A DNA stretch of 17,041 nucleotides from assembly GCA_903920405.1 (NCBI GenBank), contig CAIXMC010000048.1:1-17041 (forward strand), in the 5' to 3' direction. Each line of letters starts with the position of its first letter. Positions within the stretch are counted from its first letter, which is position 1. This stretch comes from an uncultured beta proteobacterium. GTDB lineage: Bacteria > Pseudomonadota > Gammaproteobacteria > Burkholderiales > Burkholderiaceae_C. This document shows, one piece after another, positions 456 to 16,570 of the stretch. The notes beneath the pieces are model-generated. The model was not told the DNA's origin, searched no databases, and was given only the letters and a program-made list of their open reading frames with translations. Made by a program: the position numbers and the translations under genes.

Positions 456-1229
456 ATGAAAGCAGTCATCCTGGCTGGTGGACTGGGCACTCGATTGAGC
501 GAAGAAACCGCCTCTCGCCCCAAACCCATGGTTGAAATTGGTGGGCATCCTGTGCTGTGGCACATTCTCAAGATATATTCCTACCACGGCATCAATGACT
601 TTGTCATTTGCTGTGGCTACAAGGGCTACCTCATTAAGGAATACTTTGCCAACTATTTTTTGCACATGTCTGATGTCACGTTTCACATGCAGTCCAACCA
701 GATGGAAGTGCATCACAAGCGTGCCGAGCCTTGGACAGTGACCTTGGTGGACACTGGTGAAACGTCCATGACGGGGGGGCGCTTGCGTCGTGTGGCTGAA
801 TATGTTCAAAATGATGAATTTTTTTGTTTCACTTACGGTGACGGTGTGAGTGATGTGGACATCGCAGACACGATTAACTTTCACCGCAGCCATGGCAAGG
901 CAGCAACCTTGACCGCTACCTTCCCGCCTGGTCGTTTTGGTGTTCTCGACATTCAAAACCGTCAGGTCATGAATTTCAAAGAGAAACCAAAAGGTGATGG
1001 TGCGGTGGTCAATGGTGGTTTTTTTGTGTTGTCGCCCAAAGTGCTTGGCTACCTTCAAGACGACAGCACCATCTGGGAGCAAGAACCTTTGATGCAATTG
1101 GCCAAAGATGGCGAACTGATGGCCTACCAGCACCAGGGATTTTGGCAGCCCATGGACACACTGCACGACAAGCAAACCCTTGAAAATTTGTGGGCAAGTG
1201 GTCAAGCACCCTGGAAAAAGTGGGACTGA
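456..1229 (+). CDS. rfbF: Glucose-1-phosphate cytidylyltransferase
   Basis: Forms CDP-glucose from CTP and glucose 1-phosphate in the cytoplasm, the first step toward CDP-linked 3,6-dideoxyhexoses. The 257-residue protein has the usual family length. It shows the sugar-nucleotidyltransferase signature AGGLGTRL (7-14), the RPKPMVEIG segment (21-29) with the expected lysine K23, the metal-binding YGDGVSDVD stretch (127-135) and FKEKP (174-178). The ribosome site before this ATG is weak (AAGAAAG at 440-446), but the protein begins exactly where the family does. It is the first gene of the operon; rfbG starts 7 bases after its stop. It is also called ddhA or ascA depending on the final sugar. Identification is firm. 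Confidence 0.96.
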
Positions 1230-1236
1230 CCCCAGT

Positions 1237-2319
1237 ATGACCCTTCATCACAACTTCTGGCGCGGCAAACGCGTTTTTCTTACCGGCCACACCGGCTTCA
1301 AAGGCAGTTGGCTTTCGCTCTGGCTGCAATCCTTTGGGGCAGATGTGACGGGCTACGCCTTGGCCCCGCCCACCCAGCCCTGCCTGTTTGAAATTGCTGA
1401 GGTTGCCAGTGGCATGACCAGCATCATCGGTGACATTCGGGACCTGTCCAAACTACAGGCCGCATTGAATATGCAACAGCCTGAAATTGTCATTCACATG
1501 GCAGCCCAGCCCCTGGTGCGTTACTCCTACCAACATCCGGTTGAAACCTACGCCACCAACGTCATGGGCACGGTTCATTTGCTTGAAGCCGTGCGCCATA
1601 CGCCCAGTGTCAAGGCTGTGGTCAACATCACCACCGACAAGTGTTACGACAACAAGGAGTGGCCCTGGGGCTACCGCGAAAACGAGCCTATGGGCGGCCA
1701 TGACCCCTACAGCAACAGCAAGGGATGTGCCGAATTGGTCACATCAGCCTACCGCAATTCATTTTTTCAGCACAACGGTATGGCCGTGGCCAGCGCACGT
1801 GCGGGCAATGTGATTGGTGGTGGCGACTGGGCTGCTGACCGACTGATCCCCGACATCTTGCGTGCCTTTGAGCAAAACCAGCCCGTTGTCATTCGCAACC
1901 CCCATGCCATACGCCCCTGGCAACATGTGCTTGAACCTTTGTCAGGCTACCTGACCTTGGCCGAACGTTTGTACACCGATGGATCATCTTTTGCTGAGGG
2001 CTGGAACTTTGGCCCCAACGATGACGATGCCAAACCTGTGCAATGGATTGTTGAGCAGATGGTCAGCAGTTGGGGACAGGGCGCTCGTTGGCAGCAGGAC
2101 GGTGGCCATCACCCGCATGAGGCCAATTATTTAAAGCTCGACATTTCCAAAGCCAAAGCCCGTTTGGGCTGGCATCCAAAATGGAGACTGGCACACAGTT
2201 TGGGCAACATCATGGCGTGGCACAAGGCTTTCCATGCCAAACAAAACATGCGTGACATATCACTTCAACACATCATGCACTATGTCAATTTTCAAGGAGA
2301 CCTGCCATGCAAGCAGTAA
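1237..2319 (+). CDS. rfbG: CDP-glucose 4,6-dehydratase
   Basis: An extended SDR enzyme that converts CDP-glucose to CDP-4-keto-6-deoxyglucose using tightly bound NAD. The 360-residue length fits the family. Visible features are the Rossmann motif TGHTGFKG (16-23), the TTDKCY segment from residue 132 and the catalytic YSNSK (Y158, K162). I chose the ATG at 1237 because the protein then opens with the family-like sequence NFWRGKRVFLTG; an upstream in-frame start at 1180 would overlap rfbF and add residues with no family match. The last 13 bases overlap the next small gene, whose ribosome site lies inside rfbG, so the two are likely translationally coupled. Confidence 0.96.
   Translation: MTLHHNFWRGKRVFLTGHTGFKGSWLSLWLQSFGADVTGYALAPPTQPCLFEIAEVASGMTSIIGDIRDLSKLQAALNMQQPEIVIHMAAQPLVRYSYQHPVETYATNVMGTVHLLEAVRHTPSVKAVVNITTDKCYDNKEWPWGYRENEPMGGHDPYSNSKGCAELVTSAYRNSFFQHNGMAVASARAGNVIGGGDWAADRLIPDILRAFEQNQPVVIRNPHAIRPWQHVLEPLSGYLTLAERLYTDGSSFAEGWNFGPNDDDAKPVQWIVEQMVSSWGQGARWQQDGGHHPHEANYLKLDISKAKARLGWHPKWRLAHSLGNIMAWHKAFHAKQNMRDISLQHIMHYVNFQGDLPCKQ
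2294..2300 (+). promoter_or_regulatory. Ribosome binding site inside the rfbG 3' end
   Basis: AAGGAGA lies 6 bases before the ATG at 2307, within the last codons of rfbG. It is one of the best Shine-Dalgarno matches in the operon and supports real translation of the overlapping small gene. Confidence 0.7.
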
Positions 2320-2570
2320 AAGCCCTTTACAAAGAAGGAAAAATTCAGTTGTTGGCCCCGCTGCAAGGCGTGACCGAAGCTGAATTGTTTGTGATAGTGC
2401 TCGACAAAAATGATCAAACCAGCAGCGTGGTGAACACCTGTCACCCTGTAGAACCTGATGAACTTGCTTCTGAGCAAAATTTCAAATCTTTGGGCCTGTC
2501 GAGTTTTTTTGAAACCGATGAAGACAATTCAGTCGATTGGGAGGAAGCGTTTGATGTTAAAGCCCGGTGA
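2307..2570 (+). CDS. Small antitoxin-like protein, partner of the PemK/MazF-like domain
   Basis: An 87-residue acidic protein. The N-terminal 35 residues (pattern [19 protein letters not shown], then a hydrophobic strand ending FVIVLDKND) resemble the short beta-barrel fold of AF2212-like and related antitoxin families (established family pattern, recognised by eye). The C-terminal half is rich in D and E and contains [18 protein letters not shown], which could be the toxin-neutralising tail. The gene overlaps rfbG by 13 bases upstream and overlaps the next gene by 17 bases, the antitoxin-first order typical of type II toxin-antitoxin pairs. The odd point is that the downstream toxin domain is fused to RfbH, so this protein may now bind a metabolic enzyme. 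The antitoxin role is inferred from context plus weak similarity. Confidence 0.7.
2539..2547 (+). promoter_or_regulatory. Ribosome binding site for the toxin-RfbH fusion
   Basis: GGGAGGAAG lies 6 bases before the ATG at 2554 and sets that start, rather than the in-frame ATG at 2458 that would add 32 residues with no family match. By contrast the internal ATG at 2881, where a stand-alone RfbH could begin, has only a distant GGATGAGG (2858-2865). Confidence 0.75.
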
Positions 2571-4167
2571 TATCGTTCTTTTGGATATTCCTCACACCCA
2601 TCAGGCGGGTAGTCAAGTGCGCCCCGGACTGGTTTTGGGTATCCATTCACATTCACACTCAAGCCAGGATGATGTCAGTGTGGCCTACATCACTTCCGAG
2701 GTCGATGCCTACATCCATGACACGTCGGCAGTCGCCATCACAGATGCAGACTTGTCCTCTGGCACGCTCAAGCGCAACAGTGTGGCGCGGGTGGATAAAG
2801 TGCTGACCCTTCACAGCAGCAAGTGTCGCAAGGTGGCACGTCTGACTCTGGGTAAAGTGGATGAGGCTTTGCGCAAAGCCATGTTAGTGCATGTTGAGAA
2901 TTTTGCTGCCAACAAATATACACCGCTGGCATTCATACCTGGCACCACAGTCGTTCCCCCCTCTGGAAAAGTCATCGGTGCGCAAGAATTGAAAAACATG
3001 GTCGAAGCCAGCCTGGACGGTTGGCTCACTACCGGTCGCTTTAACGCCGAGTTTGAAAAGAAACTCGCAGCCTTCATAGGCATCAAGCATCTGATCACCG
3101 TGAATTCTGGCTCGTCTGCCAATCTGGTGGCATTTAACACACTGACATCTCCCAAGCTGGGCACACGCGCCATTCAAAAAGGCGATGAAGTCATTGGCGT
3201 AGCGGCAGGATTTCCGACCACAGTGAACCCTATTTTGCAATTTGGGGCAGTGCCTGTGTTTGTGGATGTGGATGCCCTGACCCACAATATTGATGCCCAT
3301 AAAATTGAAGCTGCCATTAGCCCCAAAACCAAGGCCATCATGCTGGCGCACAGCTTGGGCAACCCCTTTAATCTGGATGTGGTCACTGCCCTGTGCAAAA
3401 AATACAACTTGTGGCTGATTGAAGACTGTTGCGATGCACTAGGCACTACCTATCGTGGCCAAATGGTCGGCACTTTTGGCGACATTGCGACCTTGAGTTT
3501 TTACCCGGCGCACCACATCACCATGGGCGAGGGCGGGGCAGTATTTACCAAACATGACGAGCTGAAAATTATTGCCGAGAGCTTTCGGGATTGGGGGCGT
3601 GACTGCTATTGCCAACCCGGCAAAGACAATACCTGTTGCAGGCGCTTTAGTCAAAAATTGGGTAGCCTGCCTGAAGGTTACGACCACAAATACACCTACA
3701 GCCACCTAGGCTACAACCTCAAAATCACCGACATGCAGGCCGCCTGCGGGTTAGCCCAACTGGAAAAAGCTCCGCAATTCATTCAAGCCCGCAAAGACAA
3801 CTTTGCTTTTTTGAAAGAACGTCTCAAAGACTGCGAAGAATTCGTCCATCTGCCGCAAGCCACCGAACATTCTGACCCCTCATGGTTTGGTTTTCCCATC
3901 ACGCTCAAACCCAACTGCCCGGTGACCCGCCTGGATTTGCTCACCTATCTGGATCAAAATAAGGTAGGAACGCGCCTTCTATTTGCCGGCAATTTGACAT
4001 GCCAACCTTATATGGCAGATGCTCATTACCGTATCAGCGGTGATTTGACGAATACAGACAATGTCATGAACAACACCTTCTGGATAGGTGTTCAGCCCGC
4101 GCTCACGCCTGAAATGCTGGAGTTTGCAGCAGCCAAAATTGAGAGTTATCTGGGGGTTAATTTTTGA
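2554..4167 (+). CDS. rfbH: PemK/MazF-like domain fused to CDP-4-keto-6-deoxyglucose 3-dehydrase (RfbH, E1)
   Basis: A 537-residue fusion. Residues 1 to about 105 resemble PemK/MazF toxins: start [12 protein letters not shown], then QVRPGLVLG, a YITSE strand, and the C-terminal [15 protein letters not shown] and [11 protein letters not shown] segments. From about residue 103 on, the protein is a full RfbH/DdhC, a PMP- and [2Fe-2S]-dependent dehydrase that removes the C3 hydroxyl of CDP-4-keto-6-deoxyglucose with electrons from a reductase (E3). The segment [21 protein letters not shown] and the rest match the family without gaps that I can see. The PLP-site histidine that replaces the usual lysine is H320 in PAHHIT. 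Four cysteines, C293, C351, C353 and C361, match the C-X57-C-X1-C-X7-C iron-sulfur pattern. Both parts look complete; the fusion adds about 100 residues to the usual 437. RfbH is near certain, the toxin-type domain likely. Whether the RNase fold is active is unknown. Confidence 0.93.
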
Positions 4168-4412
4168 GGGAATCTTCTGGCCTTTGGGAACTTGCCAGCC
4201 CGATTACCAACCCACAAACGTTTGCACAAGGCACCAAAATTCGTGAACTCAACCGACTCCTTGATGCCTACGGTGGAAAAAACTGGAAAAAGTGTAAAGG
4301 CTATGCGACCATATCCTTACTCGATACCGGTGAGTTGTTACCCGTAGAACTGCATTGGTATGAGGCACATGGTATTGGCAAAATCGAAATGAAAATTAAG
4401 GAATTGTTATGA
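4164..4412 (+). CDS. Conserved small protein, first of a two-gene pair
   Basis: An 82-residue protein translated from a TTG that overlaps the rfbH stop by 4 bases; GGGGG at 4152-4156 is a possible ribosome site. No ATG is available until the last few codons, so the TTG start is inferred or the 5' end has been trimmed. Residues 40-80 carry [17 protein letters not shown], then [19 protein letters not shown], which I recognise as a widespread small conserved family seen in scattered genomes, often beside a second small protein. Its function is unknown to me; a toxin-antitoxin role would be a guess from size, pairing and ATGA coupling. It sits inside the sugar operon but has no evident link to sugar synthesis. 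Confidence 0.7.
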
Positions 4413-4618
4413 AATGGATGATTTGCATCAAAAACACGGGCTACGAAGCCTCACTTGAGGCGCGCAAGCTCTACACACTAGAAGACGACCCCAAAGCGCA
4501 GACGCACGGCATGATCCGTGTTATTGATGAATCTGGCGAAAGCTACCTGTATCCGTCGCAAATGTTTGCCCCCATTGCGGTGCAAAATACGCTGGAATCT
4601 CAGTTGCTTGCGGCCTGA
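4409..4618 (+). CDS. Conserved small protein, second of a two-gene pair
   Basis: A 69-residue protein overlapping the previous gene by ATGA (4409-4412), so the two are coupled. It begins [21 protein letters not shown], continues LEDDPKAQTHGMIRVIDESGESYLYP, and resembles a small family of unknown function that commonly pairs with the preceding type of protein. No signal peptide, membrane segment or catalytic motif is visible. It may be the partner or antidote of the upstream protein, or an independent small regulator. It ends about 100 bases before the ThDP enzyme gene and may have entered the operon with its partner as a cassette. Confidence 0.7.
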   Translation: MKWMICIKNTGYEASLEARKLYTLEDDPKAQTHGMIRVIDESGESYLYPSQMFAPIAVQNTLESQLLAA

Positions 4619-13014: not shown

Positions 13015-14121
13015 TCACTTCCTATCCAATTTTTGCTTGCGTTTCCACAGTTCTTCACATGGTGAAAGGTGATCACGGATATTCGACACCTTTTCACCGC
13101 CAATGCCCCACTTGCCCTCAGCCGCATAGTCCATCAACTGACGTCGACGGTTTTTGCTGCTCCATGTGCCATATTGGCCTTTTGCATCGGGTTTGAGGTA
13201 GTCGCGCATCAGTGCTGCGATAAATTCCGACTCGGTTTGCGTGTTTTCCCCATGCCGCAATGCAAGGTCATGTTCAATCTCACCCGATGGGGTGAAATAA
13301 GTGGTGTTGTCAAACAGAAGCGCCGATAGAGCCAAAAGGTGGTCAACATTCGAGTCCACCGTCAATAAATTCAGCACGTCGTCAATATAGGCACTGTCCG
13401 TACTTTGGAAGACGATCCTTGCGCGTTTGAAGTCACTGACACTTGGCGAAACAATCTTTCCGTCATCATCGTTCACAAAAAACTTGGCTTGCAATGAAAG
13501 TGAAGCAAAGGGTGCTGTTGACACCAACAAACCACGCACCCGAAAAGTCCACTGATTTCCTTCAAATTCAACCTGCTGACCGCTCGCTGCCAATTGGCGA
13601 TCAACCACGTAGGGCATGTACAAAGTGGACACGATTTTGTAGTCCGACCAGCCCGCACCAGCCCCCACAATCAGCCCTTTGGGGTCAACAAAACCGAAGG
13701 TTTGTGTGCGCGTTGCATAGTCGATGATCCAGACAATAAAGTCTGGGTAATACCAGTCGGAATCATCCACGCGCAGCCGAAATGAATCATCTTGCTTTTC
13801 AATATTTCGCTTGAGCCAGATGTCCTTGCTGCCCCATTTGAGTGGCGTTTTCTCACTTTTCGGGTGATTGCCAGCGGGATAGAGGCGGCGAATAAGATCA
13901 CGCACAAAAGCTTCTTCATGCTCGTCTAGTTTTCCTGGTCCAACATCAATGTCCTTTTGATGAGGCGTGAGCAATAAGGGCTGATAGACGCTGCCTGGCG
14001 CCATGACCTCGAACTCGCCTTTGGGGTCCACGATGATGGGCATCCCGCCAATATCCGGACACGAGAGCAAGCCCCCAAACAATCCACTCTGTAGGGGCCG
14101 TACAGATTTATGGCTGGACAT
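13015..14121 (-). CDS. PD-(D/E)XK-like nuclease protein of a split type III-like restriction enzyme
   Basis: A 368-residue soluble protein. It contains WYYPDFIVWI with D127 and, 19 residues on, FVDPKG with D146 and K148: the PD...(D/E)XK arrangement of restriction-type nucleases, matching the endonuclease end of type III Res proteins. I start it at the ATG at 14121 (AAGGAA just upstream), overlapping the helicase gene by 14 bases; a start at 14172 would add residues antisense to nothing useful and lacks a better ribosome site. The order helicase-nuclease with overlap suggests that one Res protein has been divided into two coupled subunits. I have no close named family; the nuclease call rests on motif and context. 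Confidence 0.7.
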   Translation of the reverse strand: MSSHKSVRPLQSGLFGGLLSCPDIGGMPIIVDPKGEFEVMAPGSVYQPLLLTPHQKDIDVGPGKLDEHEEAFVRDLIRRLYPAGNHPKSEKTPLKWGSKDIWLKRNIEKQDDSFRLRVDDSDWYYPDFIVWIIDYATRTQTFGFVDPKGLIVGAGAGWSDYKIVSTLYMPYVVDRQLAASGQQVEFEGNQWTFRVRGLLVSTAPFASLSLQAKFFVNDDDGKIVSPSVSDFKRARIVFQSTDSAYIDDVLNLLTVDSNVDHLLALSALLFDNTTYFTPSGEIEHDLALRHGENTQTESEFIAALMRDYLKPDAKGQYGTWSSKNRRRQLMDYAAEGKWGIGGEKVSNIRDHLSPCEELWKRKQKLDRK

Positions 14122-16570
14122 GATGAAATTCCTTAAAGTACTGATCCGGAATGCCACTCTCGCACGCAGCAATCAGCGCGTAGCGACTCTTGCGGTTTTC
14201 TTGTTTACGGTACGCACTTTCAAACAAGCGACGTACCACGGTAGATGCCAGGCGATTGATTCGCACCAGGTCAGTTGCTTCTCGAACCGTCAACATTCCG
14301 GGAAAACCATAAATCTCAAACTTGCTGCTGGCCAAAGCGCTGTCAATGGCTTGGGCATCAAAAGCCAAATTCCACCAACGCTGTGAGCGTTTCCACTCAG
14401 TCAAATCTCGATACACCGCGTCACGATCGAACAGCACGGCCCAATGCTTGAACTCGGGCGTGATGTCCTGACCCATCACCCCTTGCAGAGCTGTCACGGT
14501 GCCGTCTTTGAGTCTTGATGTTGCAATGGATGCAGTCAGCGACACCTTGACCCTGTTGACACTCGCAAGCCAGGCAGCACCCAACACCGACACCTGAAAA
14601 TCATGCACAGATGGAGTCATCGTGCGAACCGACTGCAACACGGCGGGCGTGTGTTTGTGGATTGGACATTCAATCCGTCTCAAATCTGGAACGCCGTTGT
14701 CGGTCAGGCTTTTCAAAAAGGTATCAAGATAACCAGATTTCAGGCCAAACACATACGCGGTTTGCAAGGGTGCCAGCAGGGGTGCAGGCTTTTCCAGTCG
14801 CCGGCCGTTACCGCCCACACCCGCAAAACGCACGACTCGCCCGAACATTTGAATGATGAGTGAACCCTCACCCTGTCCCAGCCGAAGCAGGGTCAAACAA
14901 GACGCGCGGAAGTTGTCCCACCCCTCGGCAAATCGCCTTGATCCAATCAACACATTGAGGCCACTCCCGGAGGCATCGAGGGCAGCAAACAAAGAGCCTG
15001 ACATCGCATCATCCTCTACCGCCAGCTTGACCGATTCCAGTGCCTTTTTCAGACCAGCGGCATCGCCCACGTTGACCACGCCGTAGTAATGCGATGAATC
15101 GCCGCGCAACAACCCCAGGCCTAGTTCACCAGATGCTGCCTTGATCAGGCGCAATACCGGTTTGTCGCCCTGTTGCCAGCCAAAGCAGTCAGTCAGCACA
15201 CGCTCAGACAAGGCTTTGGCATCCCAGCCCATCATGGCGTGACGTACTTCTGGCGGAAGCATGTCAGTGCCAACAGCCGTTGCAGCCATCAACTGGCTCA
15301 CACTGGTCAGCAATTTTTCCGGCTGAGCCAGCATGGCCGTCAGATAGCTCAACACATCCACCACATCCGACGTTTGCAGCTTGTCATTTTCGTTTTTGGT
15401 ACTACCGATGACTGACAGCCCGAGTAGCACCCAAAGCGGCGACGCGACCTGCAATCCCAAGTTTGCAGCCGCCTGCTTTCCTTCGGTGGAACGAAAACAC
15501 GCCACCTGATGCCAGTAGGCCAACAATGCGGCCGTCATGGTTTGCCGCTGCGTTGTCTCGCTCGCCTCTGCACTGGACTGCACGCGCACATGCCAGAAGT
15601 CCTTGCCGTATCTGTCTTGGTGAAATCGATCGTAGGCATAGTCAAAAACCACCGCTTTGGCATAGCGACCAAACGCATGTTCGCCTTCGGCCACCTGACC
15701 AAACGTGGCAGAGAATTCGATCAACAAGCCACGATGCGCAGGTATTGGCGCGGCAATACCCGCCAGATCGGCTTGCAGAGCTTTCCACATGCCCGCTTCA
15801 GATTTTTGCCCCTTGTGGCCTTCATCGACAAACACCAGATTGCGTCCGTCTGCAAAAACCGAAGTGGGAACGGTCACCCCATCGCCTTTTTTTTCAATGG
15901 CCAGCTTGTTGATGTCCAGAACAATCACGGCATCGGGTGGCAACCGCCCCATGGCGGAAGCATCACCATCCATGGGGTAGGCAAAGACATCCCAAGTTGA
16001 CAAACTCCGCAACTTTTCGGTGTGCTGCCGAGTCAACGATTCAGAGGGCGTGATGATCATCAGTCGATCCCATGACCGGCATTTTTCCAACAGTGCCAGG
16101 CAGGCATGCAATACGTGGGTTTTGCCAGCCGCTGTCGCCATCCAAAACGCGGCCAGTTGCAAATCGGCTTCTTCAAAATCAGAAATTTCTTCACCCTTGG
16201 GCTTGTTGTCACCAAGATAAGCATTCAAGCGCACTAGAAACGCTGCGGCATCATCTAACTGGGCATGCACCCAATGGGCAAACATCATCAGCGCCAGATA
16301 TTGTGCATAGCGGGGCGCGAAGCGCACGCGAGCACAGGCTGCGCGCACCTGTGCATCCAACTCAGAGATATGACCAGCATCATCCTGGCACACCGACCCC
16401 ATGGCATCAAGGTACTTGCCTTCAGTCAGACCCTGTGCAGCCCCAATATTAGTTTCAACCGTGCGCAACTGCGACATCGCAGACAGCAGTGGAATGCCCA
16501 ACTCGGATGCCAGTGCGTCTCGCAACACCAACGCCGCTTTCAAGCGGGCATGGCCAGAACGTGTTGCCAT
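14108..16570 (-). CDS. SF2 helicase of type III restriction (Res-like) type
   Basis: An 820-residue superfamily 2 translocase. Motif I is ATAAGKTH (K150), motif II DEGH (249-252), motif III SATF soon after, and motif VI QMFGRVVR (574-581) preceded by GSRRFAEGWDNF. These are the Res-type DEAD/DEAH features. A long insert separates the two RecA-like halves (about 310-520). No nuclease motif was found in this chain; that function seems to lie in the overlapping next gene. It begins by a TAATG one-base overlap with the methyltransferase remnant, so it was coupled to modification. It would use ATP to move along or signal on DNA during defence. A non-type-III defence system with the same parts is possible. 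Confidence 0.87.
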   Translation of the reverse strand: MATRSGHARLKAALVLRDALASELGIPLLSAMSQLRTVETNIGAAQGLTEGKYLDAMGSVCQDDAGHISELDAQVRAACARVRFAPRYAQYLALMMFAHWVHAQLDDAAAFLVRLNAYLGDNKPKGEEISDFEEADLQLAAFWMATAAGKTHVLHACLALLEKCRSWDRLMIITPSESLTRQHTEKLRSLSTWDVFAYPMDGDASAMGRLPPDAVIVLDINKLAIEKKGDGVTVPTSVFADGRNLVFVDEGHKGQKSEAGMWKALQADLAGIAAPIPAHRGLLIEFSATFGQVAEGEHAFGRYAKAVVFDYAYDRFHQDRYGKDFWHVRVQSSAEASETTQRQTMTAALLAYWHQVACFRSTEGKQAAANLGLQVASPLWVLLGLSVIGSTKNENDKLQTSDVVDVLSYLTAMLAQPEKLLTSVSQLMAATAVGTDMLPPEVRHAMMGWDAKALSERVLTDCFGWQQGDKPVLRLIKAASGELGLGLLRGDSSHYYGVVNVGDAAGLKKALESVKLAVEDDAMSGSLFAALDASGSGLNVLIGSRRFAEGWDNFRASCLTLLRLGQGEGSLIIQMFGRVVRFAGVGGNGRRLEKPAPLLAPLQTAYVFGLKSGYLDTFLKSLTDNGVPDLRRIECPIHKHTPAVLQSVRTMTPSVHDFQVSVLGAAWLASVNRVKVSLTASIATSRLKDGTVTALQGVMGQDITPEFKHWAVLFDRDAVYRDLTEWKRSQRWWNLAFDAQAIDSALASSKFEIYGFPGMLTVREATDLVRINRLASTVVRRLFESAYRKQENRKSRYALIAACESGIPDQYFKEFHHVQP

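Follow-up and report, generated by a model that had tools for sequence, protein, structure and literature searches.

A MazF/PemK-fold domain fused to the sugar dehydrase RfbH, with matching upstream small ORFs and exchange of toxin types

What a toxin-like domain is doing at the head of an enzyme of sugar biosynthesis is the question raised by one gene of the window, by which we mean the whole stretch of 17,041 nucleotides analyzed here. An earlier note, made from the letters alone, had described this gene as one continuous frame, preceded by a strong ribosome site, in which about 100 residues of PemK/MazF-like sequence lead into a complete RfbH. Reading of the ORF bore out the single frame of 537 amino acids without any internal stop, and the Shine-Dalgarno-like site GGGAGGAA was present just 5' of the ATG (Table 1). 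The 3' end of rfbG overlaps the start of an 87-aa antitoxin-like ORF, and the start of the fusion is probably translationally coupled to this small ORF in turn. No start codon near the joint was conserved across the 21 fusions compared, and the toxin is not a separate small protein. An internal start yielding free RfbH was also considered and is unsupported, because the start codons around the joint vary by locus among these 21.

Table 1. Positions of the fusion gene, its parts and its neighbors in the window
Feature	Position	Strand	Remarks
rfbF, glucose-1-phosphate cytidylyltransferase	456..1229	+	TIGR02623, 471.7 bits (cut-off 300.25)
rfbG, CDP-glucose 4,6-dehydratase	1237..2319	+	TIGR02622, 523.5 bits (cut-off 278.45)
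Antitoxin-like ORF, type A, 87 aa	2307..2570	+	acidic tail with invariant Trp; relatives before other type A fusions
Shine-Dalgarno-like site of the fusion, GGGAGGAA	2539..2546	+	inside the 87-aa ORF, just 5' of the ATG
Toxin-RfbH fusion gene	2554..4167	+	ATG 2554, stop 4165-4167, 537 aa plus stop
MazF/PemK-fold domain, type A, residues 1-105	2554..2868	+	PF02452
Shared helix (predicted), residues 99-121	2848..2916	+	last helix in the toxin fold, first in RfbH
RfbH (E1) domain, residues 103-537	2860..4164	+	catalytic residues kept; NF011936 and 3bcx match
Two small overlapping ORFs directly 3' of the fusion	4164-4412, 4409-4618		no match in Pfam or PHROG

Elsewhere in the window, the ORF at 9647-9946 matches PF01909 and resembles a minimal nucleotidyltransferase, as do ORFs of two other loci, L008 (210-509, minus strand) and L020 (2464-2715); the three are mutually similar and presumably may belong to modules of the HEPN-MNT type. 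Two large overlapping ORFs lie on the minus strand at 13015-16570; the 820-aa one resembles, by eye, a helicase or a restriction subunit.

When the N-terminal part was searched separately, its likeness to PemK/MazF held: the Pfam profile PF02452 (PemK_toxin) matched residues 1-105 with E 3e-8 and 34.3 bits (cut-off 23.1), and a MazF fold was predicted for this front domain by structure modeling. NCBIfam gave no match above its cut-offs for the toxin domains scanned, that of the window included. Alignments A1-A3 define the types of fused toxin: type A (the window, L015-L021, L052, L082 and L083), type B (L027, L036, L041, L050, L061 and L064) and type C (L039, L045, L060 and L063), with L052 and three further genomes, G127, G308 and G462, assigned by profile and the other loci by these alignments. 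Each type profile also recovers most members of the other types. Ten domains besides that of the window were scanned with PF02452. Those of L016, L019, L021 and L083, all of type A, reached 40.5-48.0 bits and that of L036 (type B) 23.6 bits, just above the cut-off; L039, L045, L060 and L061 stayed below it at 17.6-21.9 bits, and L041 (type B) gave no match, so that types B and C score mostly under the Pfam cut-off.

The 20 domains of alignment A6 agree without exception at eight residues, namely G5, P13, R23, P24, D40, L72, K82 and R107. A profile of A8, whose 13 rows comprise types A and B (nine domains together) and four free toxins, matched MazF of S. aureus with E 8e-6, placing R23 on the Arg of the RP motif and T47, invariant in all 13 rows, on the Thr; with the profile of A1 alone, which is narrower than A8, no PDB sequence reached E <=0.01. 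We take the RP-Arg and the Thr to be catalytic at the RNA site of MazF, and the fused domain would probably be able to cleave RNA. In type C the RP-Arg is kept and the Thr, Arg79 and Asp81 of type A are replaced (alignment A5), and RNase activity is least certain for this type because these three are missing. Codon comparisons indicate that the toxin part is maintained by purifying selection. Its dN/dS was 0.057-0.255 in all 11 pairs, which share sequences and in two of which dS of the toxin is near saturation, and that of RfbH was 0.028-0.130 in the nine computable pairs. At the amino acid level the toxin is more divergent than RfbH in every one of the 11 pairs except L082/L083.

The enzyme part is a complete RfbH, as had been claimed. 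The RfbH equivalog NF011936 matched residues 103-534 with 732.5 bits (cut-off 423), and the solved structure 3bcx was matched with E 1.3e-200 over its residues 4-437. H320, C293, C351, C353 and C361 are invariant in an alignment of 33 rows of fused and plain RfbH; the His in place of Lys and the four Cys are presumably the functional residues of the E1 dehydrase, and the fused RfbH would be expected to work as one. The suggestion that the last helix of the toxin is shared with the first helix of RfbH is supported by the structure model, in which residues 99-121 form a single helix, and R107 of this helix does not vary among the 33 fused and plain sequences. In every toxin type the joint falls at the identical alignment position. 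Two irregularities were observed in RfbH parts. The type A fusion of L020 (3001-4761) carries an in-frame insertion of about 50 residues, and positions 4102-4168 of the window equal the first 67 bases (1-67) of contig C67 (L005) of the same genome, after which the sequences diverge. The latter overlap suggests a second rfbH copy or a strain variant with another downstream context.

The same two-domain architecture was found repeatedly in other genomes, with several toxin types. The whole protein was scanned against a single genome for each species, which gave at least 590 stretches; out of 580 that were confirmed, the best 80 were taken as loci. Of these 80, 21 were fused, 20 of them with a whole toxin domain, a figure neither complete nor unbiased, since the best matches alone were taken and ranking by similarity to the window protein over-represents fusions. 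L062 begins within the toxin domain, at a contig start. The 21 should not be counted as that many independent and complete cases, because L017 and L018 share a MAG and L052, whose RfbH runs off the contig, is closely related to the window. Fused hosts among the best 80 include Rhodoferax, Methylococcales, Chromatiaceae, Chlorobiaceae, Rugosibacter and one Cytophagales MAG, and two are isolates, Rhodoferax antarcticus ANT.BR (L036) and Thiobaca trueperi DSM 13587 (L083). MAG labels may mislead for single contigs, above all for L041, which is labeled Cytophagales and yet has an RfbH that groups with a Comamonadaceae sequence in the tree, reflecting either horizontal transfer or a misplaced contig. 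It was also observed that one Chlorobiaceae MAG holds two fused copies of RfbH (L017 and L018) and one gammaproteobacterial MAG a fused and a plain copy (L021 and L081).

Outside the best 80, additional fusions were found in G127, G308 and G462. Among 369 genomes of the class of the window, RfbH (E <=1e-120) occurred in 10 including the window's own, and a recognizable toxin was fused to it in two (G127 and G308) of the other nine. Among 35 genomes of the same genus RfbH (E <=1e-100) occurred in five, one of them fused (G024, type B). In the 369 class genomes, at E <=1e-8, the type A profile matched 16 times, with 13 toxins judged free from the length of their frame and 3 fused to RfbH, the type B profile 19 times (18 free on the same criterion, one RfbH fusion) and the type C profile twice, both free; no other enzyme partner of these toxins was found in these genomes at this threshold. 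Searches with a single sequence are blind to the other types, as the window toxin, run against 60 relatives, matched one other sequence and failed to detect the type B fusion in G024. Against plasmids, the window toxin found one distant free PemK and the window antitoxin nothing.

The 87-aa ORF of the window matched nothing in Pfam, NCBIfam, PADLOC or PHROGs, and the antitoxins scanned against Pfam and NCBIfam fitted no curated family above cut-off; sub-threshold scores included 12.4 against 21.6 for AF2212-like and 14.3 against 70 for RelN. The near-terminal Trp is invariant across 23 aligned antitoxin ORFs. A small ORF of matching type lies immediately upstream in 23 of the 24 fused loci having upstream DNA (the window, 20 named loci, G127, G308 and G462), and related ORFs precede all other type A fusions except that of G127. 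The fusion starts inside the antitoxin ORF in 20 of 21 loci examined and 12 bases past it in L041. Toxin A is paired with antitoxin atA or atA2, B with atB or atB2 and C with atC or atC2, matches that arise by construction where the profiles were built, which was mostly from the same loci; the antitoxins of L130 and L137, which stood outside profile building, also match the expected type. The front parts vary, and L021 and L061/L064 combine the tail of their own type with a different front part. Free toxin relatives in other genomes are preceded by small ORFs as well, several with the acidic Trp tail. The view of the earlier note that the upstream protein is a partner of the toxin domain thus gains support, since the antitoxin type changes along with the toxin type, and the small protein would probably neutralize the fused toxin domain.

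In a tree of the RfbH core with 108 rows, 25 of them fused, fused and plain sequences are intermixed and require at least 15 changes between the two states, at least five of which are forced by strongly supported branches. A tree of 86 rows requires a minimum of 11, and a single clade of the 25 fused rows was rejected with p-AU 1.6e-59. These counts do not distinguish gain, loss and recombination, and both trees are quick searches, the 108-row run with a warning of long branches. Duplicates, paralogues and fragments (L002-L004, L006, L008-L010, L072, L095, L107, L108, L112-L114, L129 and L133) are left out of the 108 rows, and 22 more, all plain, out of the 86 (14 viral loci, L014, L134-L136 and L138-L141). 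Exchange of types is visible in pairs with similar cores. In Chlorobiaceae the cores of L050 (type B) and of L015, L017 and L018 (type A) are 92-94% identical and the toxins 25-30%; likewise, the cores of L061 (B) and L063 (C) are 92.5% identical and the toxins 25%. In such pairs identity climbs only past the helix, toward the F-x-P-G segment. Cores this similar next to toxins that stay divergent until past the helix mean that antitoxin, toxin and helix move together. Between the window and L052 synonymous divergence was unequal in the two parts (0.49 and 0.11), a difference that fits recombination close to the joint.

Antitoxins of other types have been left beside some of the present modules. 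The type C fusion of L045 has an intact type A antitoxin ORF upstream, with 65% identity to that of the window, and the type A fusion of L021 an intact type C antitoxin ORF; in L060 a fragment of a B2-type antitoxin remains, and in L064 a C2-type antitoxin broken into two. At L068 a type C antitoxin ORF stands in front of a plain RfbH, and no antitoxin match was found at the other plain RfbH loci of the same scan. These leftover antitoxins presumably predate the present module. A short ORF of L068 resembles by eye the start of a type C toxin, although the toxin profiles did not report it. Long matches had hinted at a remnant toxin before the plain RfbH of L043 and L093, where the profiles found none.

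The opposite case, a fused domain lacking its antitoxin, is G127. No antitoxin ORF match was found upstream, and the DNA before the start resembles by eye the antitoxin end of other loci. Its toxin carries the changes Y53 to C and K82 to Q at positions that are both invariant in type A, and in G462, where the antitoxin is present, 19 of 19 checked type A residues are kept. It is suggestive, with one case each, that lack of the antitoxin goes with change of toxin residues. A further observation is the RfbH of L139 in G219 (1219-2871), which starts at the rfbG stop and has an N-terminal extension of about 110 residues; no Pfam family or toxin profile matched this extension, no antitoxin ORF was found before it, and it is possibly a decayed or different fused domain. 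From G127 and G219 it follows that RfbH may retain an N-terminal domain without an antitoxin.

Sequence comparison and structure modeling together show the fusion and its fold, conservation and purifying selection, upstream ORFs of matching type, repeated gain, loss or exchange, and the leftovers. To explain them we propose a MazEF/PemIK-like type II toxin-antitoxin (TA) module between rfbG and rfbH that acts as an addiction lock on the O-antigen locus, a proposal on which our own judgment is evenly divided. The last helix of the toxin would double as the first helix of RfbH, and the upstream small protein would be the antitoxin. One chain would then serve as the CDP-6-deoxy-hexulose 3-dehydrase (E1) for 3,6-dideoxyhexose synthesis while its MazF part is silenced by the antitoxin. 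Such a lock would follow from the fact that toxin and enzyme are inseparable save by an exact in-frame change and that loss of the locus ends antitoxin synthesis. Antitoxin, toxin and helix would be swapped en bloc by recombination, and a cell that retains the old antitoxin would survive the module switch. An addiction purpose is favored because intact antitoxins of another type beside the module are what surviving such a switch requires, and the fused module may therefore serve addiction. The high turnover suggests that the lock is far from perfect. The retention of the fused domain in G127 without an antitoxin, which a merely selfish module would not need, argues against the proposal. More tentatively, the 5' end of rfbH may be a docking site for competing TA cassettes, making O-antigen loci addictive, their variants incompatible and alleles mutually exclusive; a new variant of the locus could then replace the resident only by bringing along or retaining the resident antitoxin.

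Several other explanations were weighed against the lock. The domain could have been domesticated, its MazF fold having given up RNA cleavage to scaffold or regulate RfbH in partnership with the small protein. The constant joint in all types and the purifying selection on the toxin part agree with this, as do the missing antitoxin and two changed type-invariant residues of G127, the absence of the MazF Thr from type C, and the RfbH of G219 with its unrecognized N-terminal domain and no antitoxin ORF. However, divergent toxin types are swapped together with their own antitoxins, the MazF Arg and Thr are kept in types A and B, and plain RfbH branches among the fused sequences of the tree, so that the enzyme can do without the domain; domestication is accordingly doubtful to us. 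The turnover and the matching and leftover antitoxins look more like a TA cassette in an enzyme gene than like a regulatory domain of the sort envisaged in the earlier note. Defense against phages is the other main rival, and we regard it as unlikely. The O-antigen is a frequent phage receptor, and a phage that disturbs its synthesis or the antitoxin would free or activate the toxin and arrest the cell in abortive infection, exchange of toxin types being an arms race against phage-encoded antitoxins. Module types are indeed often swapped at one site, and RfbH-like genes occur in phage records and viral contigs, but PADLOC gave no match for the seven toxin and antitoxin proteins scanned, and the toxin domain was present in none of 19 viral loci, two of which (L107 and L108) start inside RfbH and are uninformative.

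TA complexes often repress their own promoter, and by such autoregulation the pair could control transcription of the operon and link the dose of RfbH to its own level. We consider this very improbable, given that the window antitoxin starts in overlap with rfbG, with no room for an intergenic promoter before it, and that no DNA-binding family was found in the antitoxins scanned. Finally, the fusion could be an artefact of a chimeric contig or a missed stop codon, as the genome is split into 458 contigs, one of which is the window, and the end of rfbH has 67 bases in common with a second contig. Against this, 20 further loci carry a whole toxin domain, the isolates L036 and L083 among them, and the toxin part is under purifying selection. 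Since isolates and other MAGs carry the fusion, an artefact is rejected as a general explanation, and a sequencing error hiding a stop codon, a doubt raised in the earlier note, is ruled out as a general cause; for an artefact of any kind we see next to no chance.

Compared with mazEF/pemIK, the loci are alike in the fold of MazF/PemK (PF02452), in the RP-Arg and Thr (types A and B only) and in having a small acidic-tailed ORF first, mostly overlapping the toxin start. They differ in that the toxin, elsewhere a free protein, is the N-terminal part of a biosynthetic enzyme, and in that the antitoxins fit no curated family. Compared with RfbH/AscC, the E1 CDP-6-deoxy-L-threo-D-glycero-4-hexulose 3-dehydrase (3bcx, 3bb8), the enzyme is likewise complete with its His and four Cys, whereas the fusion adds about 100 N-terminal residues and the first helix is, by prediction, shared with the toxin fold. 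Orphan antitoxins and anti-addiction are also familiar, an antitoxin being kept without its toxin; here, by contrast, an antitoxin of another type adjoins a present module upstream of one enzyme gene. Another case of a toxin domain on a larger protein is that of HicA, which occurs in fusions with other domains, SMC-HicA among them (PMC10865869). These fusions involve a different toxin family and mostly join a toxin to an antitoxin, and in the available part of that paper neither a biosynthetic enzyme nor successive replacement of toxin types is described. In the open-licence literature nothing was found on RfbH together with MazF or PemK, and the papers there on RfbH and toxin-antitoxin systems deal, in their available parts, with other subjects and contain no fusion. 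As far as this literature was searched, it contains no description of a MazF-type toxin that is joined to a biosynthetic enzyme and serially exchanged between types.

TA modules are usually viewed as free-standing pairs, and their role on chromosomes is disputed. Here, one TA class is joined to a biosynthetic enzyme of an exchange-prone surface locus at a fixed joint, in several divergent toxin types, with matching antitoxins and leftovers of others. The helix predicted to be shared would be a structural way to attach a toxin to the terminus of an enzyme with the catalytic residues of the latter intact, and the function of a chromosomal TA module becomes testable in cultured hosts.
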